From NCBI RefSeq assembly GCF_022828475.1, contig NZ_CP059557.1:4077470-4141469 (forward strand): a stretch of DNA of 64,000 nucleotides. The letters are read 5' to 3'. Each line of letters starts with the position of its first letter. Position 1 is the first letter of the stretch. This document shows, piece by piece, positions 21,271 to 33,857 of this stretch. Below the pieces are notes generated by a model. It was not told where the DNA came from, did no database searches, and saw only the letters and a list, made by a program, of their open reading frames with translations. This DNA is from Saccharopolyspora gloriosae (GTDB lineage: Bacteria > Actinomycetota > Actinomycetes > Mycobacteriales > Pseudonocardiaceae). The position numbers and the translations under genes are program-made.

Positions 21271-23661
21271 GTGACTCAGCCGCCACGCCGCCTGTTGCTG
21301 GTCAGCGCCACCATCGGCGAAGGGCACAACGCCACCGCACGAGCAGTCGAAGAAGCGGCCCGCGCCCGTTGGCCGGAGTGCACGGTGACGTGGGCGGACG
21401 CGTTGGAGCTGATGGGCTCCTGGGTGCCCCGGACGTTCCAGCGCATCTACGTGACCAACGTCGAGTCGACGCCGTGGCTCTACGACTTCTTCTACGCGGC
21501 GCTGTGGCGGCAGCGCTGGTTCGCCGACGGCTGCCGCCGCTTCGTGGGCTCCTGGTGCGGGCGGCGGCTGCGCCCGCTGCTGGCGGCGCGGCGCCCGGAC
21601 CTGATCGTCTCGACATATCCGCTGGGCACCGCAGGATTGGACTGGCTGCGCCGACGAGGTGAGCTGGACGCGCCGATCGCGGCGGTGATCTCCGACTTCG
21701 CCCCGCACCCGTTCTGGGTGTACTCCGAGATCGACCTGCACTACGTGATGAGCGAGAACGGGCTGCGTGCCGCACATCGCGCGCAACCCCGCTCGGTGCA
21801 CGCCGTGAGCGCCCCACCCGTGGAGACCCGGTTCCGCCCGCGCGAGAAGTCCGCCGCACGCCGGGACTGCGGGCTGCCCACCGAGGGCCGGATCCTGCTG
21901 ATCTCCTGCGGCTCACTGGGTTTCGGTTCCGTCGAACGCGCCGCCGACGCCGCGCTGCGCACCGGGATCGACCACGTGGTCGTGCTGTGCGGCCACAATG
22001 AGCCGCTGCTGCGCCGGCTGCGGGACCGCGCGGAGCAGGACGCGCGCCTGATCCCGCTGAGCTGGGTGCGGGACGTGCCCGCCTACACGGCGGCGGCCGA
22101 CGTGGTGGTGACCAACGCGGGCGGTGCGACCGCGCTGGAAGCACTCGCCTGCGGACGCCCGGTCCTGATGGTGGAGCCCATCGCCGGGCACGGCCGCGCC
22201 AACGCCCGACTGATGGCCGAGGCGGGGCTGGCCGAGCTGTGCGAAGACGGGGACGCGCTGACCCGGACGCTGCACCTGCTGATCACCGAACCGGCGGCAC
22301 TGCGCGACGCCGAGCAGCGCGTGCTCGACCACCTCGCCGCCACCGGCCGGTTCGCGGACCAGGTCGCCGAACTCGCGCACCTGCGAGTGCCGTCGAAACC
22401 TCGGCGGCTACGCGGTCAGGACGCGTTCTTCGTGCACGCCGACACCCCGGTCGTTCCCCAGCAGACCGGCGCCGTCCTGTCGCTGAGCACCACGGACCGG
22501 GCAATGACGACCGCCGACTGGATCGACCACCTCGGCCGCCTGATCAGCACCAGGGCACCGGACCTGCCGATGCTGCGTCACCGCCTGAGCACGCCGCCCG
22601 GCCACCGGCCGTACTGGGTCCCGGTCCGGGAGTTCACCGTCTCCGAGCACCTGAGCCACCACGAACTGCGCACTGCCGACCCCGCCGAACGGGAGAAGGT
22701 CGAACGCGAGTTCTTCACGGCTCCGTTGCGCCGCGACCGCCCGCCCTGGTCGATGAAACTGGTCCGCCGTCCGGGCGCCGAGCTGGTGACGATCCTGGTC
22801 AAAATGCATCACGCGCTGGGCGACGGGCTGGTCATGACGTCCTCGCTGCTGCGGCTCCTCGCCGACTCACCACCGCAGGCCCCCGCTCCCGTCGTCCCGG
22901 TGCCGTCACATCCGCGCCGCGCCGCGGCGGTGCTGCGCGGCCTGCTCAGCCTCGCCGCGACGAGCACCGCGCCCACCGCGACGCGGGGAAGCAGTACCTC
23001 CGCCCGCCGATTCGCGTGGCTGGAGCTGCCCGCCGAGGAGGTACGAGCATGCGCCGCCGCGCATCGGGTCAGTCGCAGCGCGCTGCTGCTGGCGACACTG
23101 GCCGAAGCGCTGCACCGGCTCGATGAGAACAACACGACGCAGCATTCGATCCGCGCGATGGTGCCGCGCAGCACCGGCGAGGGCAACGACGAGTTCGGCA
23201 ATCACACGGCCGGAGTGCCGGTCGACCTCCCGCTGGGGCAGATGGTTCCCAGGCGCCGTCTCAACGAGGTCGCGGCCCGGCTCGCCCACTCCCAGGGGCA
23301 CGGGCGCCCCGCCGCGGCCGCGGCCGTGCTCCGGGCGCTCGCCGCGCTGCCCGCTCCGCTGCACGCCGAAGCGGTGCGCGCGACGTACCGCGCGCGCTTC
23401 TTCCGGACCATCGTCTCGATCATGCCCGGCGGCTTCGACACGACGCTGGTCGCCGGGGCACCGTTGCACACGGTGCATCCCGTGCTGCCGTTGGCCGACG
23501 GAGTGGGGCTGGCCGTCGGCATGTTCCATTGGAACGAGCGCACCGGCATCGGCGTCACCACCGACCCCGGGTTGTTCGCGGACGTGGACGAGCTCGCCGA
23601 CCAACTCCGGCACGCGTTCACCGCGCTGCGCGACGCCGAGCCGGCGGACGTGGGCTCGTGA
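21271..23661 (+). CDS. fusion of MGDG-synthase/UgtP-type glycosyltransferase and WS/DGAT-type acyltransferase
   Basis: This 796-residue protein joins two enzymes. Residues 1-375 are a GT28/GT-B glycosyltransferase of the diacylglycerol-glycosyltransferase type: SATIGEGHNATARAV at 11-25, DFAPHPFW, and the nucleotide-sugar motif TNAGGATALEALACGRPVLM near 281-300. Residues about 385-790 are a wax ester synthase/diacylglycerol acyltransferase domain with DAFFVHAD at its start, the catalytic HHALGDG at 513-519, and later PRSTGEGNDEFGNHTAG. A single polypeptide could glycosylate a lipid and then acylate it. The stop overlaps the start of the DMT-type membrane gene (GTGA), followed by an SDR, forming a probable lipid-assembly operon. 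Both domains are full length with no internal start needed. The substrate is unknown. Confidence 0.85.
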   Translation: MTQPPRRLLLVSATIGEGHNATARAVEEAARARWPECTVTWADALELMGSWVPRTFQRIYVTNVESTPWLYDFFYAALWRQRWFADGCRRFVGSWCGRRLRPLLAARRPDLIVSTYPLGTAGLDWLRRRGELDAPIAAVISDFAPHPFWVYSEIDLHYVMSENGLRAAHRAQPRSVHAVSAPPVETRFRPREKSAARRDCGLPTEGRILLISCGSLGFGSVERAADAALRTGIDHVVVLCGHNEPLLRRLRDRAEQDARLIPLSWVRDVPAYTAAADVVVTNAGGATALEALACGRPVLMVEPIAGHGRANARLMAEAGLAELCEDGDALTRTLHLLITEPAALRDAEQRVLDHLAATGRFADQVAELAHLRVPSKPRRLRGQDAFFVHADTPVVPQQTGAVLSLSTTDRAMTTADWIDHLGRLISTRAPDLPMLRHRLSTPPGHRPYWVPVREFTVSEHLSHHELRTADPAEREKVEREFFTAPLRRDRPPWSMKLVRRPGAELVTILVKMHHALGDGLVMTSSLLRLLADSPPQAPAPVVPVPSHPRRAAAVLRGLLSLAATSTAPTATRGSSTSARRFAWLELPAEEVRACAAAHRVSRSALLLATLAEALHRLDENNTTQHSIRAMVPRSTGEGNDEFGNHTAGVPVDLPLGQMVPRRRLNEVAARLAHSQGHGRPAAAAAVLRALAALPAPLHAEAVRATYRARFFRTIVSIMPGGFDTTLVAGAPLHTVHPVLPLADGVGLAVGMFHWNERTGIGVTTDPGLFADVDELADQLRHAFTALRDAEPADVGS

Positions 23662-24557
23662 GCTCGACGGGCACGATGCTGGGCGTGGCGGTGCCCGCCG
23701 CCGTGCTCGGCGCGGCCGGGTTCGGCCTGGCCAGCGCCGTGCAGCAGCGGGCGACCAAGCAGGTGCCCACCAGCCGCACGCTGGATCCCCGGCTGCTGTG
23801 GGATCTGGTGCGCAAGCCGATCTGGGTGCTCAGCATCGGGACCGTCCTGGCGGGCCTCGCGCTGCAGATGGTGGCGCTCGCGTTCGGGCCGCTGGTCCTG
23901 GTGCAGCCGCTGCTGGTGACCTCGGTGCTGTTCGGGGCGGTGTTCGCGGCGGGCATGGCGCACCGCAAGCTCGACCGGGTCCTGGTGCTCGGCGCGCTGG
24001 CCGTGATGGCGGGACTGGCCGTGTTCCTGCTGCTGGCCCGCCCCGCGGGTGAGGGCACCGGGTTCACGGCATCGGCCGACGTCCGGCCGCTGGCGGTGCT
24101 GCTGGCAGTGGTCGTGGTGGGGTGCGTGCTGGCCGCGAACCGGTTCCCCGGCGAGGTGCGGGTGCTGTCGCTCGCCCTGGCCACCGGCGTCCTCTACGGC
24201 GTCACCGCGGGCCTGATCAAGGTCGTCGCCGAACAACTCCGCCACGGCGGCATCGCCGAACCGTTCACTCAGCCGAGCCTCTACGTCGTGTGCGCGCTGG
24301 GGCCGGTGGGGTTCCTGCTGAGCCAGAACACCTTCCAGCAGGGCAAGTTCATCTCCCCCGCGCTGGCGGTCATCACCGCGGTCGATCCGCTGGTGGGCAT
24401 GGCGATCGGAGTGAGCTGGCTCGGCGAGCGCATCGAGACCTCACCACCCGCGCTGGTGGGGCAGGCCTTCGCCGCGATGGCGTTGCTGGTGGGGATCTGG
24501 GTGCTGACCCATCGCGGCGAGCACCTGAGACGGGTCGCGGAGATGCGCGCCGGATGA
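23658..24557 (+). CDS. DMT-superfamily (EamA-like) integral membrane protein
   Basis: The GTG at 23658 overlaps the stop of the fusion gene by 4 bases and gives 299 residues; frames extending upstream run inside that gene. The protein has nine to ten hydrophobic helices in a DMT layout, with AVLGAAGFGLASAVQQRATKQ at the start and FLLSQNTFQQGKFISPALAVITAVDPLVGMAIG in the second half, resembling NIPA/EamA-type permeases. Members of this superfamily transport metabolites or flip lipid-linked sugars. Tight coupling to a glycolipid-type enzyme makes a lipid flippase role attractive but unproven. Confidence 0.8.
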   Translation: MSSTGTMLGVAVPAAVLGAAGFGLASAVQQRATKQVPTSRTLDPRLLWDLVRKPIWVLSIGTVLAGLALQMVALAFGPLVLVQPLLVTSVLFGAVFAAGMAHRKLDRVLVLGALAVMAGLAVFLLLARPAGEGTGFTASADVRPLAVLLAVVVVGCVLAANRFPGEVRVLSLALATGVLYGVTAGLIKVVAEQLRHGGIAEPFTQPSLYVVCALGPVGFLLSQNTFQQGKFISPALAVITAVDPLVGMAIGVSWLGERIETSPPALVGQAFAAMALLVGIWVLTHRGEHLRRVAEMRAG

Positions 24558-24567
24558 GGTGGCCCGA

Positions 24568-25281
24568 ATGACGTGGCACAGCGCCCTGGTGACCGGCGGT
24601 TCCTCCGGCATCGGCGCCGCGCTCGCGTTGGAGCTGGGCTCGATGGGGTGCGAGCCGGTGCTGGTCGGCCGCGACGCCGAGCGGCTCGCCACCGTCGCCC
24701 GCCGCAGCGGTGGCCGCCCGCTGGTGGCGGATCTGACCGATCCCGCCGGGCTGGACCGGGCGGCCACGGCCGCCGCCGACACCGACCTCGTGATCAACAA
24801 CGCCGGATTCGGCTGCGCGGCACCGCTATCGGCGATGTCGGGCCGGCTCGTGGACGAGCTGATCGCGCTGAACCTCACCGCCCCGCTGCAGCTGACCCGC
24901 GCGGCGCTGCCCGATCTGGCGCGGCGCGGCGGTCAGGTCGGATTCGTCTCGTCCATCGCCGTGGTGGGCGTGCGGGAGGAGGCGGTGTACGCGGCGACGA
25001 AAGCGGGGCTGCGCGCCTTCGCCGCCAGCGTGGCCCACGAAGGTGTACCGGTGACGACCGTGTTCCCCGGCGTGGTGAACACCCGCTTCTTCGATCGGCG
25101 CGGCCCCTGCACTCGCCGCCGTCCCCGTCCCGTGCCGCCGGAGCGGGTGGCGCACGTGTTGCTGCGAGCGCTGGCGGAGGGGACCTCCGAGGTGTTCGTA
25201 CCGAGTTGGCTGGGTCTCGCCGCCCGCGCGCACGGCGCGCTGCCGGGAACGTTCCACCGGTTGGCTCGACGCTTCGGCTGA
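24568..25281 (+). CDS. SDR family oxidoreductase, last gene of the fusion-gene cassette
   Basis: I chose the ATG at 24568, which has GAGG eight bases upstream; a GTG at 24559 is also in frame. The 237-residue product has VTGGSSGIGAALALEL, the NNAGFG motif, Ser in FVSSIAVVG and Tyr/Lys in YAATKAGLRAF. It resembles SDRs acting on long-chain or acyl substrates, with a short hydrophobic C-terminus (GTFHRLARRFG). It begins 10 bases after the DMT-type gene and is probably translated from the same mRNA. Confidence 0.9.
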   Translation: MTWHSALVTGGSSGIGAALALELGSMGCEPVLVGRDAERLATVARRSGGRPLVADLTDPAGLDRAATAAADTDLVINNAGFGCAAPLSAMSGRLVDELIALNLTAPLQLTRAALPDLARRGGQVGFVSSIAVVGVREEAVYAATKAGLRAFAASVAHEGVPVTTVFPGVVNTRFFDRRGPCTRRRPRPVPPERVAHVLLRALAEGTSEVFVPSWLGLAARAHGALPGTFHRLARRFG

Positions 25282-25297: not shown

Positions 25298-25954
25298 TCA
25301 GGCCGGTGCCCGGCGGGCGAAGCGCAGCGTGATGCCCTCGCCGTGCAGTTCCCTGCGCAGCCACCAGATGGAGCCGACGGCGGCGACCGCGACCAGGCTG
25401 AACGAACCGGCGGTGCTGGCCAGCAGGAAGTGCCCGATGGTCGCCTGCGCCAGCGCCCACAGCGTGGTGAACCCGTTGATCGTGAACACCAGCGCCCACA
25501 GCAGCGAGACCCGGCGGAAGAACCGCTGGACCCTGGCGTGACCGATCAGCGATGGCGGCAGGATGCAGAAGTCGTCGGCGAGCTTCGCGATCAACGTCCG
25601 CTCGAACAGCAGCGAGCCGAGGAACAGCAGTGCGACGAGGAAGTTCTGCAGGCTGGGTTCCAAGAAGTACAGGAAAGAGCTGTTCGTCACGAAGCCCACG
25701 ATCGTGCGCACCACCAGCACCCCGGTGGTCAACATCAGCACCAAGGGCACCTGCACCCGCAGCGCGAGCCGGACCGCGACGGCCCCCAGGCCCCAGACGA
25801 GCGCGGCGATCAGACCGCCGGTCAGTCCGGTGAAGGTGAACAGGACGTAGAAGAGCACCAGCGGTGCGATGACCGTCTCGCCCAGGTGCTTGGCGGCGTG
25901 CCACAGGTGCGATGGGAGCGCGTCGAGGTGCACGACCTGCGATGGCTTCTGCAT
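25298..25954 (-). CDS. integral membrane protein (VC0807-like), downstream of hpnH
   Basis: I chose the ATG at 25954, giving 218 residues. Six to seven hydrophobic segments are visible, with TNSSFLYFLEPSLQNFLVALLFLGSLLFERTLIAKLADDFCILP in the middle, loosely like VC0807/YciB-type membrane proteins. No enzymatic motif is seen. It lies 83 bases downstream of hpnH on the same strand and converges on the SDR gene with a 16-base gap, so it may belong to the end of the hopanoid transcript. The function is unknown. Confidence 0.6.
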   Translation of the reverse strand: MQKPSQVVHLDALPSHLWHAAKHLGETVIAPLVLFYVLFTFTGLTGGLIAALVWGLGAVAVRLALRVQVPLVLMLTTGVLVVRTIVGFVTNSSFLYFLEPSLQNFLVALLFLGSLLFERTLIAKLADDFCILPPSLIGHARVQRFFRRVSLLWALVFTINGFTTLWALAQATIGHFLLASTAGSFSLVAVAAVGSIWWLRRELHGEGITLRFARRAPA

Positions 25955-26037: not shown

Positions 26038-27039
26038 TCACCCGTTCAGGGCACGTATCGACTCACGCAGTGAACCCATCGTGGCCAGTACCGCGGTGGG
26101 CTCGTAACCGCAATGCGCCATGCAGTTGGCGCACCGCGGATCCCGGCCGCGCCCGTAGGAGTCCCAGTCGGTGTCCTCGAGCAGCTCCCGGTACGTCTCC
26201 GCATACCCGTCGCCCATCAGATAGCACGGGCGCTGCCAGCCGTAGAGCGAGTACGACGGGATCGCCCACGCCGTGCAGCCGAAGTCGACCTTGCCCTCGA
26301 GGAAGTCCAGGAACCTCGGTGAGTGGTTGAAGCGCCACTTCTTGCGCCTGCCGTCGGCGAACACCTTCGCGAACAGCTCCCGCGTCTCGGCGACCCCCAG
26401 GAAGTGCTCTTGATCCGGCGCCTTGTCGTAGGCGTAGGCGGGCGAGAGCATCATCTGGTCCACCTCGAGTTCGTCGTTGAGGTAGTCCAGCACCTCGATC
26501 ACCGAGGCCGGGGTGTCGGTGCTGAAGAAAGTGCTGTTCGTGGTGATCCGGAACCCGCGGCGCTGCGCGTCCTTCACGTTGTCCACGGCCTGCTCGAACA
26601 CGCCCTGCTTGCACACCGACGCGTCGTGGCGCTCCTGGAGCCCGTCGATGTGCACCGCCCACGAGAAGTAGGGCGACGGGCTGAACTTGTCGATCTTGCG
26701 CGGCATCAGCAGCGCGTTCGTGCACAGGTACACGAACTTCTTGCGGCGCACGAGCTCGGCGACGAGCACGTCGATCTCAGGGTGCATCAGCGGTTCTCCC
26801 CCGGCGATGGAGACGACCGGCGCGCCGCATTCCTCGACGGCGGCCAGCGCGCGCTCCACCGGCATCCGCTGCTTCAGCACACCGGCGGGGTGTTGGATCT
26901 TGCCGCAGCCCGCGCAGGCCAGGTTGCAGGCGAACAGCGGCTCCAACTCCAGGGTCAGCGCGAACTTCTCCCGCCGCGCGATCTTCTGCCGCACCAGATA
27001 GGAGCCGACGCGAATGGCCTGCCGCATCGGAATGCCCAT
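26038..27039 (-). CDS. hpnH: HpnH, adenosyl-hopene transferase (radical SAM)
   Basis: The 333-residue protein carries the radical-SAM cluster motif CNLACAGC (Cys38, Cys42, Cys45), the GGEPL motif after it, and extra Cys in RCANCMAHCGYEP near the C-terminus. The N-terminus MGIPMRQAIRVGSYLVRQKI is typical of HpnH. The enzyme joins the 5'-deoxyadenosyl group of SAM to diploptene, giving adenosylhopane, the first step to extended hopanoids. It is the last core gene of the hopanoid operon, 80 bases after hpnG. Confidence 0.95.
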   Translation of the reverse strand: MGIPMRQAIRVGSYLVRQKIARREKFALTLELEPLFACNLACAGCGKIQHPAGVLKQRMPVERALAAVEECGAPVVSIAGGEPLMHPEIDVLVAELVRRKKFVYLCTNALLMPRKIDKFSPSPYFSWAVHIDGLQERHDASVCKQGVFEQAVDNVKDAQRRGFRITTNSTFFSTDTPASVIEVLDYLNDELEVDQMMLSPAYAYDKAPDQEHFLGVAETRELFAKVFADGRRKKWRFNHSPRFLDFLEGKVDFGCTAWAIPSYSLYGWQRPCYLMGDGYAETYRELLEDTDWDSYGRGRDPRCANCMAHCGYEPTAVLATMGSLRESIRALNG

Positions 27040-27119: not shown

Positions 27120-27776
27120 TCACCGCGACGAGTCGCGTGGCCCCGGACGACATCGACGCCGGGCGGAGCCGTTTTCGGCCGCCCACTCGACGATCACCGG
27201 GGCGAGCCGCCGCAGGCGCAGCAACGCCCGAACCGAGCGGTCGGGGGTGCGGACGTGCGCCAGCGGAGCCACCGCCGTGTCGACCACGACCCGCACCACC
27301 GCACACAGCCGCTCCCCTGCGATGCGCGCGAGCGCGGCGGATTCCATGTCGACGGCCACCACGCCCGTGGTGGCCAGTGCTGCGCGTTCCGCCCCGCCCA
27401 CCACGTGATCAGCGCTGCTGATCGGGCCGACGAGGACCCCGAAACCGGCGGTGCGCAGCCGATCGGCCAACGCTAGGGCACCTGGTATCCGCACCGTGTC
27501 CGTCCCGTCGCGCACCTCGTCGGCGACCACGACCGCTCCGGTGGCGGTGGCGCCGACCCCTCCGGCCAGGCCGGCGACGGCCAGCGAGTCGTGCTCACCG
27601 ACACCTGCCGAGCCGAGTTCGCGGGCGCTGCGCCGCGGCCCGAGCCCGGTTCGCAGCACCGCGGCCCGCGAAGCGCCGCCGAGCGCGAACGCCTCGCACC
27701 GCAGCGGTGCGCACAGCAGCACCCCGGCGCCGGTGACCTCACCGCCGCTGGGCGCCACCGAATCGGGCCGGGCCAT
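27120..27776 (-). CDS. hpnG: HpnG-like adenosylhopane nucleosidase/phosphorylase
   Basis: The 218-residue product belongs to the purine-nucleosidase/phosphorylase superfamily: LCAPLRCEAFALG at the start, TGLGPRRSA, and VAVDMESAALARIA, the Met-Glu-Ser nucleoside-binding motif. In hopanoid clusters this protein removes adenine from adenosylhopane to give ribosylhopane. I prefer the ATG at 27776; a GTG at 27785 is also in frame and neither has a strong ribosome site. It follows shc by 16 bases. The C-terminal 25 residues are basic and Arg-rich, which is unusual. Confidence 0.88.
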   Translation of the reverse strand: MARPDSVAPSGGEVTGAGVLLCAPLRCEAFALGGASRAAVLRTGLGPRRSARELGSAGVGEHDSLAVAGLAGGVGATATGAVVVADEVRDGTDTVRIPGALALADRLRTAGFGVLVGPISSADHVVGGAERAALATTGVVAVDMESAALARIAGERLCAVVRVVVDTAVAPLAHVRTPDRSVRALLRLRRLAPVIVEWAAENGSARRRCRPGPRDSSR

Positions 27777-27792: not shown

Positions 27793-29727
27793 TCACTGCC
27801 CCACCGCGCGCTCGTACCGTCCGAGCGCGGTGAGCGGGAAGATCAGCCGGTACAGGTGGTAGTTGATCAGGAAGTCGCCGGGGAATCCGGTGCCGGTGTA
27901 CTGCGGCTCGTCCCAGGTCCCGTCCGAGCGCTGCGTGGTGGCCAGGAACTCCACCCCGTTGCGCACCGCCTCCCCGGTGTGCCCGCCCAAGGCCAGCAAC
28001 GCCATCAGCGCCCACCCGGTCTGCGAGGCCGTGGAGGTGCCGACGCCGATCCAGCGCGCATCGGTGTAGGAGCGCATGTCCTCGCCCCATCCGCCGTCGG
28101 AGTTCTGGTGCTGCTCGAGCCACCGCGCGGCGCGGCGCAGCGCCGGATGGTTCACGGGCACCCCGGCTTCGACCAGTGCGGGAACCGCGGCACCCGTTCC
28201 GTACACGTGGTTCGCGCCCCAGCGCCCGAACCACGAGCCATCGGCCTCCTGGTTCTCCAGCAGCCATCGCACGCCGGCGCGGACCACCGGATCGTCCCGG
28301 TGTCCCACCGCGGACAGCGCCTCCACGACGTGCGCGGTGACGTCGGCCGACGGCGGGTCGATGACCTCGCCGAAGTCGCAGAACGGCAGCCGCGTGACGA
28401 GCTTGCCGGTGTTGTCGGCGTCGAACGCGCCCCAGCCGCCGTCGCGGGACTGCATGCCACGAAGCCAGTGCACGCCGCGGTCGAGGGCGCGGCGCACCGC
28501 ATCGGGTTTGGTGTGCTCGACCCGGTTCAACGCCAGCAGCGCGACGGCGGTGTCGTCGGTGTCGGGGTAGCCGTCGTTCTCGAACTCGAAGGCCCACCCG
28601 CCGGGCGCCAGGTTCGGCCTTCGCACCGACCAGTCCCCGGTGACCCGGACTTCCTCGTCGAGCAGGTAGTCCGCCGCGCAGCGCAGCGCGGGATGATCGG
28701 CGGGCAGCCCCGCGTCCCGCAACGCCTGCACGCTCAGCACCGTGTCCCACACCGGTGACTGGCACGCCTCCATCCGGCGCACCGGCCCGTCCGATGTCAG
28801 TTCGTTGATGAGGAATCCGTCGAGCCCCGCGAGCCCTTCGCGCAGCACCGGATGTTCCAGCGGGTAGCCGAGCAGGTGCAGCGCCAGCAGGGAGTACACC
28901 CACGGCGGCTGGATGCCGCCCCACGAACCGTCGGCCTCCTGCCGGGCCACGATCCACTCGGCGGCGCGGCGCATCGACAGTTCCCGCAAAGCGCGCACCG
29001 GCCGTCGCTGGTAGCGGTGCAGCACGGCGTCGAGCGCGTGGAAAGCCCGGTCCCAGCCGCCCGACGACCGACGCGGGCTGCGCCCGGTGCGCAGTTCCGA
29101 AACGCTCACGCCCAGCTCCCGGCGGGGCCGCAGGGTGCAGACCACGGTCAGCGGAACCACGGTCTGCCGCGCCCAGCACGCCCAGTCGGCCAGGTTCAGC
29201 GGCATGGATTTGCCCAGCAGCACCACTTCCGGCGGCATCGCGGGCAGTTCGTCCCAGGACCACTCGCCGAACAGGGCCAGCCAGATCCGGGTGAACACCC
29301 GGGTTCCTTCGATGCCGCCGTTGGCGAGGATCCACGCCCGAGCAGTGATCATGTGCTCGGAGTCCGAGGGGTCCCCGGCGAGCTTGAGCGCCGTGTACGC
29401 CTCAACGGTGGTCGAGAGGTCGCCGGGGCCGCCGTGGAAGGTCGCCCAGGTTCCGTCCTCCCGCTGCTGAGACCGGATCCAGCGCGCGGCCCGCGTGGTC
29501 TCTTCGGGGGTCCGGATGCCGAGGAACTGCCGCATCAGCAGGTCTTCGACGTCCATCGTGACGTTGGTCTGCAACTCCCCCTTCCACCAGCCGGCGTCGT
29601 CCTGCAGCGACAGCAGGTGCTCGCGGGCCGCCAGCAGCGCCGCGTGCGCGCGGACACCGCTTCCCACGGGCAGGTCTGGAAGGGTCTGCTGCTCGACCCC
29701 GGATCGGGTCAGTTGTTCGGTCACCAT
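27793..29727 (-). CDS. shc: squalene-hopene cyclase
   Basis: The 644-residue protein starts at the ATG at 29727, overlapping the prenyl synthase stop by 7 bases; longer open frames upstream are antisense to real genes. It has the catalytic DTDD motif at residues 389-392 (DxDD), several QW repeats such as QEADGSWFGRWG and QNSDGGWGED, and FPGDFLINYHLYRLIFPL near the C-terminus. It cyclises squalene to hopene and hopanol in the membrane. It is the centre of the operon, after the squalene-synthesis genes hpnC-E and before the side-chain genes hpnG and hpnH. Confidence 0.96.
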   Translation of the reverse strand: MVTEQLTRSGVEQQTLPDLPVGSGVRAHAALLAAREHLLSLQDDAGWWKGELQTNVTMDVEDLLMRQFLGIRTPEETTRAARWIRSQQREDGTWATFHGGPGDLSTTVEAYTALKLAGDPSDSEHMITARAWILANGGIEGTRVFTRIWLALFGEWSWDELPAMPPEVVLLGKSMPLNLADWACWARQTVVPLTVVCTLRPRRELGVSVSELRTGRSPRRSSGGWDRAFHALDAVLHRYQRRPVRALRELSMRRAAEWIVARQEADGSWGGIQPPWVYSLLALHLLGYPLEHPVLREGLAGLDGFLINELTSDGPVRRMEACQSPVWDTVLSVQALRDAGLPADHPALRCAADYLLDEEVRVTGDWSVRRPNLAPGGWAFEFENDGYPDTDDTAVALLALNRVEHTKPDAVRRALDRGVHWLRGMQSRDGGWGAFDADNTGKLVTRLPFCDFGEVIDPPSADVTAHVVEALSAVGHRDDPVVRAGVRWLLENQEADGSWFGRWGANHVYGTGAAVPALVEAGVPVNHPALRRAARWLEQHQNSDGGWGEDMRSYTDARWIGVGTSTASQTGWALMALLALGGHTGEAVRNGVEFLATTQRSDGTWDEPQYTGTGFPGDFLINYHLYRLIFPLTALGRYERAVGQ

Positions 29728-30734
29728 TGCCTCCGCACGATGAATTCCGCGAGTTCGGTCAGGGCGTCCACCGCGGGACCTGTTCGGCCGCCGGTGTGCA
29801 GGTGCGCGAACGCGGCGGTGAGCCTGCGTTCGCATTCGGTCTCGGCCCAGTCCCGCGCGCCCGTCTGCCGCACCAGGTCGGCGGCCAGCTCGGCGCGGTC
29901 CCCGAGCAGCTGCCCGGGTTCCTGGTAGAGCCGGTGCAGTCGCTCGCCCGCCGAGGTGCCGGAGGTGAGTGCACGCACGATCGGCGCTGTCTTCTTCCGC
30001 GCCCGCAGGTCGGACAGGACCGGTTTTCCGGTGGTCGCGGGATCTCCCCACAGGCCGAGGAGGTCGTCGACGAGCTGGAAGGCCATCCCCAGCTCCATTC
30101 CGAAGGCGTGCAGCCGGGACACCGTCGCCGCATCGCCTCCGGCGGACAGCGCGCCGAGCGCACACGCACCGCCGAGCAGCGCGGCGGTCTTTCCTTCGAC
30201 CATCCGCAGGCATTCGGCGAGGCCGACGTCGTGGCGTCGTTCGAATGCGAGGTCGGCGGCCTGCCCGACGATGAGGCCGCCGGTCGCCGAGGCCAGCATC
30301 CGCACCGACTCGGCGGCGTGCGGAATCGGCGTTTCCACCAGCACGTTCGTGCCGAGCGACAGCAGCGCGTCCCCCGCCAGCAGCGCCGCGGGCCTGCCGA
30401 ACACGGTCCACGCGGTCGGCCGGTGCCGTCGGGAGGCGTCGTCGTCCATCAGGTCGTCGTGCAGCAGCGAGAAGTTGTGCACGAGCTCGACCGCGGCCGC
30501 CGCCCGCACGGGGGCGGGCGCCTCTTCGCTCACCGCGCGCGCGGTGAGGAAGACCAGCGCCGGGCGCAGTGCTTTGCCGGTGCGGCCGTCCGGAGTGCCA
30601 TCGGCGTGCACCCAACCGAAGTGGTATTCGCAGACGCGCCGGGTGTGCTCGTCGAGCGCACCGACGGCGGCGCGCAGCGCGGGCTCCACCTGCTTGCGGG
30701 ATGTGGTCAGCACGTTGGGCACGGCAAGGGTCAT
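29721..30734 (-). CDS. polyprenyl (farnesyl) diphosphate synthase of the hopanoid operon
   Basis: The 337-residue all-helical prenyl synthase has the first Asp-rich motif in LLHDDLMDDDASRR and a second region FQLVDDLLGLWGDP, where the usual DDxxD reads DDLLG, a form common in actinomycete trans-prenyl synthases. GKALRPALVFL is the substrate-binding part. It supplies farnesyl diphosphate for squalene synthesis by HpnC/D/E. The start ATG at 30734 overlaps the hpnE stop by 4 bases, and its own stop overlaps shc. Product chain length (C15 versus longer) is inferred from the operon. Confidence 0.92.
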   Translation of the reverse strand: MTLAVPNVLTTSRKQVEPALRAAVGALDEHTRRVCEYHFGWVHADGTPDGRTGKALRPALVFLTARAVSEEAPAPVRAAAAVELVHNFSLLHDDLMDDDASRRHRPTAWTVFGRPAALLAGDALLSLGTNVLVETPIPHAAESVRMLASATGGLIVGQAADLAFERRHDVGLAECLRMVEGKTAALLGGACALGALSAGGDAATVSRLHAFGMELGMAFQLVDDLLGLWGDPATTGKPVLSDLRARKKTAPIVRALTSGTSAGERLHRLYQEPGQLLGDRAELAADLVRQTGARDWAETECERRLTAAFAHLHTGGRTGPAVDALTELAEFIVRRQW

Positions 30735-32095
30735 CGGGGTACCTCCACGCCAGCTCGCGAGGCGTCTCCGGCAGCCGTCCGCAGCACGCGCACGGCCTGC
30801 TCTCCGCTGCGCACAGCGCCTTCGAGGGTGTCGGGCCAGCCGGTCGCGGTCCACGCTCCCGCCAACGCGAGACCGGTCGGTCCGATGTCGGCCGCGGGAC
30901 GCAGCGCGCCGGTTCCGGGGGTCTGGTCGAACGTCGCTCGCGGTTCCCGGGTGACGAAGAAGTCCTCGACCCGCGCGTGCCTCGCCGCGGGCAGCACGTC
31001 CCGCAGCGCGGGAAGGAACACCTCCCGGACCTCGTCGGCTCGCCGGTCCAGATATTCGTGGGCGGCCGACAGCGAGATCGCCAGGTACTGGCCGTGCGGC
31101 GCCCCGGCGATCGAGGTCCGGTCGAACAGCCACTGAACCGGAGAGTCGAGCACCGCGGCCATCGGCTCGCCGAGCACCGGCCGGTCGTAGCGCACGTGCA
31201 CGTTGACGATCGGCGCCGCCGACAATCCGGCCCACCGCCGAGCCTGCGGCAGCGGCAGTCCCGCCAGCAGCGCGGTGGCGTGCGAGTGCGGCACCGCGAG
31301 CACCACGGAATCGGCGTTGAGCACGTCGTCCCCACCGCGACCGCGGACCGGGACGCGCCAGCCCGGTTCGTCCCGGCGCACCGCCGCCGCCTTGGTGCGC
31401 AGCAGCACTCGAACTCCGGCCGTGTCCAGGGCGCGATGTGCGACCGTGCCGTGCAGCTCCCCCAGCGGGCGAGACGGAATCCCGATGTCCGCGGCGTCCG
31501 GAGCGTCGAGCACGCCGGTGCGGAACACCTTCACCGCCAGCGCCAGCGAAGCCCGCTCCGGCTGCGCGTTGAGCGCCGCCACCGACAGCAGCCCCCACAG
31601 GGCGTCCACGGCCCGTCCCGACTCGCCACGCGAGCGCAGCCAGGCACCGAAGCTGATCTCGTCGAGCGCGGGGTCCGCCGGATCCAGCGCGCGCAGCGCC
31701 ATCGCGGTGCGGGCCGCGCCGAGGCGGTCGCCGAGGCCGAGCTCGCCGTATCCGAGCAGCGCGGGCGCGAAGTGCGCCGGAGCAGGCAGCCGCCGCCGCA
31801 GCAGCACGCTCGGCCGTCCGGTCGGGCTGAGCACCGGAATCCGCAACCGTGGCTGCAGCCGGATTTCGTCGGCGGCGCCGATCCTGCGCAGCAGCGCGCG
31901 ATAGGCGGTGTAGCAGCGCAGGATCACGTGCTGCCCGGTGTCGACGGCCAGTTCGCCTCGCTGGAACGAACCCGCCGCGCCGCCGAGGCGGGCGCGGGAT
32001 TCCAGCAGCGTCACGCGAAATCCCTCGTCGGCGCAGCGCAACGCGGCGGTGACACCGGCGAGGCCACCACCGACGACGAGGACCTCGCTGCTCAC
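30731..32095 (-). CDS. hpnE: HpnE, hydroxysqualene oxidoreductase (FAD amine-oxidase fold)
   Basis: The GTG at 32095 overlaps the hpnD stop by 4 bases and gives 454 residues. It starts with the FAD motif VLVVGGGLAGVTAALRCADEGFRVTLLESRARLGGAAGSF, then VDTGQHVILRCYTAYR, typical of squalene-associated FAD desaturase-like enzymes, and ends with GLALAGAWTATGWPDTLEGAVRSGEQAVRVL. It reduces hydroxysqualene to squalene after HpnC and HpnD. The following prenyl synthase start overlaps its stop. Confidence 0.94.
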   Translation of the reverse strand: MSSEVLVVGGGLAGVTAALRCADEGFRVTLLESRARLGGAAGSFQRGELAVDTGQHVILRCYTAYRALLRRIGAADEIRLQPRLRIPVLSPTGRPSVLLRRRLPAPAHFAPALLGYGELGLGDRLGAARTAMALRALDPADPALDEISFGAWLRSRGESGRAVDALWGLLSVAALNAQPERASLALAVKVFRTGVLDAPDAADIGIPSRPLGELHGTVAHRALDTAGVRVLLRTKAAAVRRDEPGWRVPVRGRGGDDVLNADSVVLAVPHSHATALLAGLPLPQARRWAGLSAAPIVNVHVRYDRPVLGEPMAAVLDSPVQWLFDRTSIAGAPHGQYLAISLSAAHEYLDRRADEVREVFLPALRDVLPAARHARVEDFFVTREPRATFDQTPGTGALRPAADIGPTGLALAGAWTATGWPDTLEGAVRSGEQAVRVLRTAAGDASRAGVEVPR

Positions 32096-32955
32096 GGCGC
32101 CATCCCCGCCATCGACCGCGCCGCGACGCCCGCCTTGCGCCAAGGCGACAACGAGGTGCGGGAGCGCATGGCGCGAGCGGGTGCGACGGCGATGGCGTGC
32201 AGCATCTCGTGGTAGATCCCGGACATCGACGCGCAGCAGGCGCGGCTGCGCCGGTCCAGCATCGGCAGCAGCGCGAACCCTTCCCGATACCACTGTTCGG
32301 CCCGGTGCACTTCGAACCGCACGAGCCGCGCCAGCCCGTCCGCTTCGCGCGCCGTCGGGCCGGGTTCGCCCGGAACGAGGTGCACCCCGAACCGGCGCAG
32401 GTCCTCAGCCGGCAGGTAGACGCGTCCGTTGTCGTGATCCTCGCGGACGTCGCGCAGGATGTTGGTCAGTTGCAGCGCCACCCCGAGCGAGTCGGCGCGA
32501 CGGTCCGCGAGCGCCCGGTCGCCGGTCCCGAACACGCCGAGCGAAAGCCTGCCGATGGAACCGGCCACGCAGCGGCAGTAGTGCAGCAGCTCGGCGAAGG
32601 TCGCGTATTCGGCACCGCGCACGTCCGCCTCGCAGCCGTCGATCAGGTCGTCGAACGCGGACATCGGCAGCGCGAGCCGCGACTCCGCGTCGGCCACGGC
32701 CACCAGCACGGGATCCGCCGACCGCGGGCTCGCCTCGTGCAGTGCGGCCCGGGCTTGCGCGAGCAGCCGCAGCTTCTCCGGAGCGGGCAGTTCCCCGTCA
32801 CCGATGTCGTCGACGCGGCGGGCGAACGCGTAGACCGCGGAGAGCGCTCGGCGTTTCGGTCCCGGCAACAAGCGGATCCCGTAGTAGAAGTTGCGGGCGC
32901 GGGCGCGGGTGATGCGCTCGCATTCCCGGTAGGCCTCCTGCACTGAGGTGTTCAC
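32092..32955 (-). CDS. hpnD: HpnD, presqualene diphosphate synthase
   Basis: The 287-residue squalene/phytoene synthase-family protein starts at a GTG that overlaps the hpnC stop by 4 bases. Asp-rich motifs are AFARRVDDIGDGE and NILRDVREDHDNGRVYLP, both intact. NFYYGIRLLPGPKRRALSAVYAFAR is the family N-terminus. It condenses two farnesyl diphosphates to presqualene diphosphate. Its Arg-rich C-terminus is normal for the group. It is translationally coupled both upstream and downstream. Confidence 0.93.
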   Translation of the reverse strand: MNTSVQEAYRECERITRARARNFYYGIRLLPGPKRRALSAVYAFARRVDDIGDGELPAPEKLRLLAQARAALHEASPRSADPVLVAVADAESRLALPMSAFDDLIDGCEADVRGAEYATFAELLHYCRCVAGSIGRLSLGVFGTGDRALADRRADSLGVALQLTNILRDVREDHDNGRVYLPAEDLRRFGVHLVPGEPGPTAREADGLARLVRFEVHRAEQWYREGFALLPMLDRRSRACCASMSGIYHEMLHAIAVAPARAMRSRTSLSPWRKAGVAARSMAGMAP

Positions 32956-33857
32956 CAGGAGCCTCCTGAGAGCAGCAGCCGTGCCCATTCGACGGCGATG
33001 CGCGTGCGGGCGGGTGTCGCGTCGACGCTGACCGGGTCGAACCGGGCGGCGGCCAACGCGCGTGCGGTGGCTCGGCCTCCCGCGACGTATCCGGCCACCG
33101 CGAGCCGCGCGGGCAACGGCAGCAGCCCCACCAGCGGCGCACCGGAGTCGAGCAGCCGCCTGGCGCGCACGACCTGGAACCGCAACATCGCCCGCCAGTG
33201 CCCGGGTGCGCTGCCGGATTCGAGTTCGTCGAGCCGGCACCCGTAGTGGTGCAGATCCGCTTCGGGAAGGTAGACGCGGCCTTGGCGGTGGTCTTCGAGC
33301 ACGTCCTGGCAGTGCTCCAGGATCTGCAGCGCGGTGCAGATCCGGTCGGAGAGCGCGACGAGTTCGGGGCTCGCGCAGCCGAAAATGTGCAGCACCGACT
33401 CGCCGACGGGATTGGCCGACAGCGCGCAGTAGTCGACGAGTTCGGCGAACGTGCAGTAGCGGTGCACGTGCTGGTCCCGCCGGTTGGCGTCGATCAGCCG
33501 CGTCAGCACGTCCTTGGGCAGGCCGCACTCGTGGACGGTGATGGCGAGGGCTCGCAGCAGCGGGATGCGCGGAGTGCCCCGGTACACGTGGCCGAGGTCG
33601 GCTTCGAGGTGGTCCAGGAGGATGTCGCGGTTGCCCGGAGCTTCGTCGCCCGCGTAGTCGACCAGCCGGAAGTATCCGTACAGCGCCATCAGGTGGGTGC
33701 GCGGGCCGCTGGGCAGGACGCGTGCCGCCACGGGAAAGTTCTCGTTTCCCGCTCGTGCGAGCACGGCAGCGGTGTCGGGAAGCTGCGCGGTGAAGTCCGT
33801 CGCCCGCTCGGTCGTGCGCTCGTCGGCCAGCCGCCCACGAGCCCGAGAAATGTCCAC
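32952..33857 (-). CDS. hpnC: HpnC, hydroxysqualene synthase, first gene of hopanoid operon
   Basis: The 301-residue squalene/phytoene synthase-family protein starts at a GTG with GAGAGGG upstream. It has NENFPVAARVLP, the first Asp motif in YFRLVDYAGDE and the second in DVLEDHRQGRVYLP, which fit HpnC rather than HpnD. It converts presqualene diphosphate to hydroxysqualene. The operon promoter should lie in the 466-base gap upstream. The operon runs hpnC-hpnD-hpnE-prenyl synthase-shc-hpnG-hpnH. Confidence 0.93.
   Translation of the reverse strand: MDISRARGRLADERTTERATDFTAQLPDTAAVLARAGNENFPVAARVLPSGPRTHLMALYGYFRLVDYAGDEAPGNRDILLDHLEADLGHVYRGTPRIPLLRALAITVHECGLPKDVLTRLIDANRRDQHVHRYCTFAELVDYCALSANPVGESVLHIFGCASPELVALSDRICTALQILEHCQDVLEDHRQGRVYLPEADLHHYGCRLDELESGSAPGHWRAMLRFQVVRARRLLDSGAPLVGLLPLPARLAVAGYVAGGRATARALAAARFDPVSVDATPARTRIAVEWARLLLSGGSW

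Follow-up and report, generated by a model that had tools for sequence, protein, structure and literature searches.

A glycosyltransferase–acyltransferase fusion linked to hopanoid genes in actinobacteria is a candidate hopanoid-tailoring enzyme

RESULTS

The fusion protein and its operon

In a stretch of 64,000 nucleotides from Saccharopolyspora gloriosae (contig NZ_CP059557.1, positions 4,077,470 to 4,141,469 of the forward strand), the whole of which is called the window below, one gene encodes a protein that joins a glycosyltransferase (GT) to a WS/DGAT-type acyltransferase (AT), and it is followed by the genes of a DMT-family membrane protein and a short-chain dehydrogenase/reductase (SDR). 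The comparison of this operon with its relatives suggests, with moderate confidence, that the three genes form a hopanoid-tailoring module which makes acylated hopanoid glycosides. Hopanoids are lipids that resemble sterols and occur in many bacteria, and the hopane biomarkers found in rocks derive from them.

The 796-amino-acid fusion protein (21271..23661, plus strand) was analyzed using Pfam, a profile search against the PDB, AlphaFold2 modeling with structure comparison, and residue conservation. Residues ~1–375 were assigned to a GT of the monogalactosyldiacylglycerol (MGDG) synthase/GT28 type, and residues ~376–796 to the AT. Four Pfam models in all scored above their cut-offs, which were two domains in order in the GT half (69.9 and 37.3 bits, with cut-offs of 25 and 22), and WS_DGAT_cat and WS_DGAT_C in the AT half (62.6 and 56.5 bits, with cut-offs of 23.6 and 20.7). 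The fold predicted by AlphaFold2 matched the crystal structures of MGD1 and WS/DGAT. Hence, the Pfam models and the predicted fold bear out the initial annotation of this DNA, which had proposed that one chain joins a GT to a WS/DGAT acyltransferase. The operon that it described was also found, as the GTG start of the DMT gene (23658..24557, plus strand) overlaps the stop codon of the fusion gene in the sequence GTGA, and the SDR gene (24568..25281, plus strand) follows after a gap of 10 bases.

In the HHxxxDG motif of the AT half, H514, D518, and G519 were invariant in 40 of 40 sequences, and H513 was conserved in at least 90%. The glycine- and histidine-containing motifs of the GT half were also conserved among relatives. 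Because the catalytic motifs of the AT and the SDR, as well as the GT motifs, are conserved, the module would be expected to be active. The closest relatives of the GT half with a solved structure were a processive diacylglycerol β-glucosyltransferase (9wde) and MGD1. The top NCBIfam match of this half was the diglucosyl-diacylglycerol synthase model NF010135 (7.2e-35), but the score of 120.6 bits was far below the cut-off of 500, and the fusion scored 188.2 bits with the acyl_WS_DGAT subfamily model TIGR02946, which has a cut-off of 309.95. In view of these failed equivalog cut-offs, and of a genomic context that favors hopanoids, the earlier proposal of a diacylglycerol-type enzyme was not retained, and the synthesis of a diacylglycerol glycolipid was set aside as the main interpretation.

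The fusion follows hopanoid genes in presence and position

The distribution of the fusion was analyzed in 297 genomes of the family of the window, Pseudonocardiaceae, which were searched both for the fusion and for HpnH, the adenosylhopane synthase. The fusion was found in 87 genomes, and HpnH in 116. The data showed that HpnH was present in 86 of the 87 genomes with the fusion versus 30 of the 210 genomes without it. The 87 genomes, the status of which was assigned by hand, include those where the fusion was seen as two same-frame pieces or as partial matches in a long frame, and the counts obtained with the fusion query are lower bounds, with the best two to five candidates scored per genome. 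The same pattern was observed within genera. Among 15 genomes of genus g43 with any query match, five contained both the fusion and HpnH and 10 contained neither, and among nine such genomes of genus g16, the corresponding numbers were four and five.

The surroundings of the fusion were compared in the best 80 of 301 relatives found by a profile scan of genome contigs (alignment A1), a set which is biased to close relatives. This set included Saccharopolyspora, Halosaccharopolyspora, Actinopolyspora, Kutzneria, Prauserella, Qaidamihabitans, Sciscionella, Gandjariella, Amycolatopsis, Pseudonocardia, Micromonospora, Arthrobacter terrae, Intrasporangium, Actinopolymorpha, and metagenome-assembled genomes (MAGs) titled with several orders. 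A fusion was considered complete when more than 250 profile positions were covered in the GT half and more than 250 in the AT half. By gene calls, 75 of the 80 loci contained a complete fusion and four contained only the GT, while one more fusion, that of A. terrae (L132), was detected by tblastn only (residues 6–783), with five hopanoid gene types near it. Genes of the relatives were called with a codon-usage script, so that starts and small genes are uncertain; besides the A. terrae fusion, this script missed the SDR gene of locus L195 (G342:C17:144250-144981).

When hopanoid gene types were counted within ~10 kb of the 75 complete fusions, where some contigs end sooner, at least two types were found in 65 loci, one type in two loci, and none in eight. 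The linked loci belonged to four orders, which were Pseudonocardiales, Micromonosporales (Micromonospora), Micrococcales (Intrasporangium), and Propionibacteriales (Actinopolymorpha rutila and two MAGs), and they were also present in MAGs titled Nanopelagicales and Frankiales, the latter with one gene type. The order of genes in the hopanoid cluster varied between lineages, and therefore the linkage does not simply reflect one frozen order. The DMT gene was directly after the fusion in 59 of the 75 loci and within three genes of it in 72, and the SDR gene was within three genes of it in 67. The initial annotation had left the conservation of the fusion and of its gene order to be checked; both are conserved across the family genomes and the named loci, so the fusion is not a singleton, and the idea of an isolated accident was rejected.

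The SDR is a candidate for the bacteriohopanetetrol-forming enzyme

The third gene of the operon encodes a classical SDR of 237 amino acids, with a Pfam adh_short match above the cut-off, TGxxxGIG and YxxxK motifs, and an AlphaFold2 model with a pLDDT (predicted local distance difference test) of 92.3. An invariant arginine, R35, follows the second strand, which, judging from SDRs in general, presumably fits the use of NADPH. The nearest solved sequences were varied SDRs, and therefore homology does not name the substrate.

A profile of the module SDR divided the SDR genes of all loci into two groups: 128 genes scored between 204.7 and 387.7 bits, 30 did not exceed 140.4 bits, and no gene fell in between. 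Most of the high-scoring genes (125 of 128) were within four genes of HpnH, a GT, AT or fusion gene, or another hopanoid gene, and the remaining three were in loci chosen for holding the SDR (L209, L210, and L212). Among the low-scoring genes, 11 of 30 were also within four genes of such genes, one of them a 90-amino-acid piece cut by a contig end. The gap between 204.7 and 140.4 bits, together with the position near hopanoid genes, led us to reject the view that the module contains an arbitrary SDR.

The whole-genome search showed that the best SDR match reached at least 226 bits in 70 of 76 HpnH-positive genomes versus one of 84 HpnH-negative genomes, and the other SDRs among the matches listed scored at most 192.1 bits. 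The positive genomes comprised 67 of 68 outside genus g71 and three of eight within it, and the negative ones contributed zero of four and one of 80. The hopanoid cluster of g71 contains an aminotransferase, which we take to be HpnO from its place in the cluster and from general knowledge rather than from a named model. This HpnO-like gene was detected in 16 of 80 genomes, including eight of eight from g71, and in five of the six HpnH-positive genomes in which the SDR was absent. At least one of these two genes, SDR and HpnO-like aminotransferase, was present in 75 of the 76 HpnH-positive genomes. Such a pattern would be expected if every organism making hopanoid side chains requires at least one route from ribosylhopane, either its reduction to bacteriohopanetetrol (BHT) or its amination to aminobacteriohopanetriol.

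The enzyme turning ribosylhopane into BHT is described as not established in the introduction of an article of November 2025 (PMC12583986). The presence/absence data and the linkage make the SDR a strong candidate for this reductase, and a function in building the hopanoid side chain explains it better than a place in a glycolipid pathway.

The DMT protein and the facing hopanoid cluster

The DMT-family protein, a putative lipid flippase, scored 107.7 bits with NF038012 (cut-off 50), and 19.2 bits with Pfam EamA, which is below the cut-off of 28.2. Seven hydrophobic segments were counted from a shorter ATG start, with the N-termini of relatives compared. The idea that the DMT protein is bound solely to the GT was not upheld, as its gene was also found with GT-less gene sets (L182 and L195).

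The operon is faced by a hopanoid cluster that begins at position 25298 on the minus strand, and in which squalene-hopene cyclase (SHC), HpnH, HpnC, HpnD, and HpnE all scored above NCBIfam cut-offs. The first gene (25298..25954) encodes a VC0807-family membrane protein, which has no assigned function (NF041646, 95.8 bits, cut-off 65). This protein recurs in the module (25 of 41 loci) and is also present near DMT genes and near genes joining a PAP2 phosphatase to an AT where the fusion is absent (L182 and L195). It is followed on the same strand by HpnH, a radical SAM enzyme (26038..27027; TIGR03470, 518 bits, cut-off 225, scored on a longer frame containing it), and by an HpnG-like nucleosidase/phosphorylase (27120..27776). 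The assignment of the latter is marginal (PNP_UDP_1, 25.2 bits versus 25.1), and relies mostly on its position between SHC and HpnH; an NCBIfam search with this protein at 1e-20 gave no match. The cluster continues, also on the minus strand, with SHC (27793..29727; TIGR01507, 749.6 bits, cut-off 431.1), a polyprenyl diphosphate synthase (29721..30734; polyprenyl_synt, 1.1e-56), the hydroxysqualene dehydroxylase HpnE (30731..32095; TIGR03467, 409.9 bits, cut-off 283), the presqualene diphosphate synthase HpnD (32092..32955; TIGR03465, 283 bits, cut-off 278.6), and the squalene synthase HpnC (32952..33857; TIGR03464, 256.5 bits, cut-off 250.45). The polyprenyl synthase also scored 422.9 bits with the model of the family 2 encapsulin cargo polyprenyl transferase, which has a cut-off of 450.

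Two further observations concern hopanoid genes of the relatives. The place of the HpnG-like gene, which stands alone in the window, is taken in many lineages (L074–L083, L088, L110, and others) by a protein of ~500 amino acids, the second half of which is LytB/IspH (Pfam LYTB, 284.9 bits in L080). Genome G334 and many other genomes of family f20 contain two HpnH genes; in G334 one is in the hopanoid cluster (L193) and the other elsewhere (L192).

Separate parts and the origin of the fusion

The arrangement of genes where the fusion is absent was analyzed in 20 fusion-less HpnH neighborhoods, drawn from 19 genomes that belong to the class but to other families, and in loci of genera g25 and g27. 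In genus g25 (L171–L174), an AT and the SDR were near hopanoid genes where the whole GT was absent, and profiles detected a GT remnant in L171 and L173. These data suggest that acylation without glycosylation is possible in g25, and the four loci offer a naturally occurring deletion with which the sequence of steps could be examined. In g27 and in other families, proteins joining PAP2 to WS/DGAT were identified by Pfam near hopanoid genes (L190, L195, L182, and L088), and stand-alone GTs were also located near such genes (L198, L203, and L187). On the other hand, in the g27 loci L085–L087 and L090 the GT and DMT genes form a pair which lies apart from hopanoid genes. Genus g71 is presumed to be Streptomyces, and in all three of its eight genomes that contain the SDR, this gene diverges from a GT gene and immediately precedes a DMT gene; gene calling across the 20 kb retrieved around these trios gave no hopanoid gene.

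A maximum likelihood tree built from 53 GT domains placed each of the 30 fusion GTs in a single group of 34 (support 99/96). Nested in this group were four non-fused GTs: the second GT of L122, and three GT-only proteins of the Amycolatopsis type, which were next to Amycolatopsis fusions. In a second tree, built from 39 AT domains, the four GT-less ATs of g25 nested among the fusion ATs, and four PAP2-AT proteins, together with a second WS/DGAT of the genome of the window, formed one branch (100/99). This branch was among the fusion ATs when the tree was midpoint-rooted, while rooting on the branch itself would place the fusions and g25 in one clade. Depending on the rooting, the simplest reading would be a single fusion event followed by loss of either half.

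Other arrangements of related GTs were also seen. Relatives of the GT half are contained in proteins of 597–643 amino acids in L036, L037, L044, and L045, which could be other GT fusions; in the two of them that were tested, L036 and L044, the final ~250 residues had no Pfam match at 0.001. In Pseudonocardia and in genus g43 (L074–L083, L145, L149, L151, L154, L155, L159, L168, and L169), another, divergent GT gene adjoins the fusion, and its product may attach a second sugar.

Comparison with known systems

The consulted part of PMC12583986 describes HpnI, HpnK, and HpnJ as the pathway to BHT glucosamine and BHT cyclitol ether. Like the proposed module, this pathway acts downstream of HpnH and HpnG and attaches a sugar to the side chain of the hopanoid, but the GT of the module is MGDG-synthase-like and fused to an AT. 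Among 40 HpnH-positive actinomycete genomes (20 with the fusion and 20 without it), none contained the known BHT glycosyltransferase HpnI (TIGR03472) above the cut-off of 310, the two weak matches scoring 79.8 and 74.8 bits, and none contained the known hopanoid transporter HpnN (TIGR03480) above the cut-off of 751.85, with one weak match of 74.9 bits. The genome of the window gave no HpnI match at 1e-20. Because HpnI and HpnN were below cut-off, and a GT and a transporter are linked to the hopanoid cluster, the GT and the DMT protein could reasonably be considered as their replacements. In such a case the DMT protein would share a transport role with HpnN, to which it is unrelated in protein type.

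Each half of the fusion also resembles well-known enzymes. The GT half shares its fold with MGD1 and the bacterial GT28-type diacylglycerol glucosyltransferases, but it differs from them in being fused, tied to hopanoid genes, and below the diglucosyl-diacylglycerol synthase cut-off. Similarly, the AT half shares both Pfam domains, the HHxxxDG motif, and the fold with the wax ester synthase/diacylglycerol acyltransferase, but it is fused to a GT and falls below the TIGR02946 cut-off. In the PAP2-WS/DGAT proteins of L088, L182, L190, and L195, the genes of which lie near hopanoid genes, a WS/DGAT domain is likewise joined to another lipid enzyme; their partner is however a PAP2 phosphatase, and their AT is on a separate branch.

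DISCUSSION

The data suggest a pathway in which HpnH and the HpnG-like protein would make ribosylhopane, and the SDR would reduce it to BHT. The GT half of the fusion could then glycosylate the hopanoid at the terminal hydroxyl of its side chain, and the AT half could link a fatty acyl group through an ester bond to the added sugar or to the rest of the polyol. The single chain would let the amphiphilic intermediate pass from the GT half to the AT half, and the DMT protein might flip the product to the outer leaflet. Such a product, an acylated glycoside of a hopanoid, would correspond to the acyl steryl glycosides. The latter, known from plants and Helicobacter, likewise combine a polycyclic triterpenoid with a sugar and an acyl group, and separate enzymes make them from sterols. 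For Alicyclobacillus, PMC8537080 cites N-acylglucosaminyl-BHT, a chemically similar product, which indicates that such a product class exists. The module might also belong to an actinobacterial hopanoid head-group pathway that replaces HpnI–HpnK and HpnN, with the SDR as the BHT-forming reductase, the fusion making acylated hopanoid glycosides, and the DMT protein exporting them; this wider reading is tentative, and we place it somewhat below even chances. The idea of the initial annotation that the unit glycosylates, acylates, and moves a lipid thus survives, while the context points away from diacylglycerol as that lipid, because the gene follows hopanoid genes in position and in presence and absence.

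Several observations weigh against a hopanoid-tailoring module. The sequence does not tell which sugar, which acceptor, or which acylated position is used, and the presence/absence counts are uncorrected for relatedness, so that Fisher test values calculated from them are not to be taken as probabilities. One genome with the fusion (G087, apparently the Kutzneria MAG of L156) had no HpnH match, and a separate search of the L156 genome likewise gave none. Conversely, the 30 family genomes with HpnH in which the fusion was absent belonged to the genera g27 (19 genomes), g25 (10 genomes), and g3 (a single, fragmented genome). The eight fusion loci unlinked to hopanoid genes are a further point, with HpnH present elsewhere in seven of these eight genomes, and three of the 75 fusion loci had no DMT gene called within three genes. 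Genus g25 has kept the AT and the SDR, having lost most of the GT, with no DMT gene called nearby. In a set of 394 genomes of the class, where the HpnH status assumes the same genome draw as in the fusion search, 55 of 92 HpnH-positive genomes matched the query, and GT matches were also found in 11 of 302 HpnH-negative genomes; therefore, the GT family as a whole is not restricted to hopanoids. Regarding the SDR, the 226-bit line was set after the score gap had been seen. Genome G366, which is 91% complete and belongs to family f16, where HpnH-positive members also occur, is HpnH-negative and has the SDR at a contig end, and genome G394 is HpnH-positive with neither the SDR nor the HpnO-like gene. 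A strict alternation of these two genes was rejected, as 11 genomes hold both, and so they are not alternatives.

The arrangement in g25 could also be explained by the two halves of the fusion acting on different hopanoids, so that the AT would esterify BHT directly, the GT would make a separate glycoside, and the fusion would just co-regulate or co-localize them. The retention of AT and SDR in g25 without the whole GT, the GT-less PAP2-AT proteins that g27 and other families encode beside hopanoid genes, and the GT and DMT pair of g27, which lies apart from such genes, are consistent with this explanation. However, the fusion is kept in four orders, for which a shared substrate is a simpler reason to have one chain, and the PAP2-AT halves branch apart from the fusion ATs; hence we consider separate substrates unlikely. 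Somewhat less likely still is an enzyme that glycosylates diacylglycerol and acylates the sugar, giving an acylated glycoglycerolipid, with hopanoid neighbors that share only membrane physiology with it. Such an activity is suggested by the nearest solved structures and by NF010135 as the best GT match, but that match reached only about a quarter of its cut-off, and neither the tie to HpnH in 86 of 87 genomes nor the linkage in 65 of 75 loci would be expected for a general glycoglycerolipid enzyme. The substrate could also be another lipid, such as a wax ester, triacylglycerol, or carotenoid, with the hopanoid linkage reflecting inherited genome order, as wax esters and triacylglycerol are the best-known products of WS/DGAT enzymes, and one family makes up much of the sample. 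This is improbable, since the linkage holds in differently ordered clusters and in other orders, and presence and absence agree within genera. Moreover, the second WS_DGAT_cat gene of the genome of the window fits the model far better (256.8 versus 63.7 bits), and it could perform ordinary ester synthesis.

Of the matches listed in a search of open-licence PMC literature, none described this fusion or attributed the formation of BHT to an SDR, so that a prior description is possible, and little was found on how actinobacteria decorate and export hopanoids. The enzyme architecture proposed here for the tailoring of hopanoid side chains would be new, and a single candidate gene, with strong presence/absence support, is now named for the BHT-forming step. 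The linkage of the fusion to hopanoid genes suggests that many actinobacteria make a hopanoid decorated with sugar and fat, a lipid class which is predicted here in identifiable, culturable genera.

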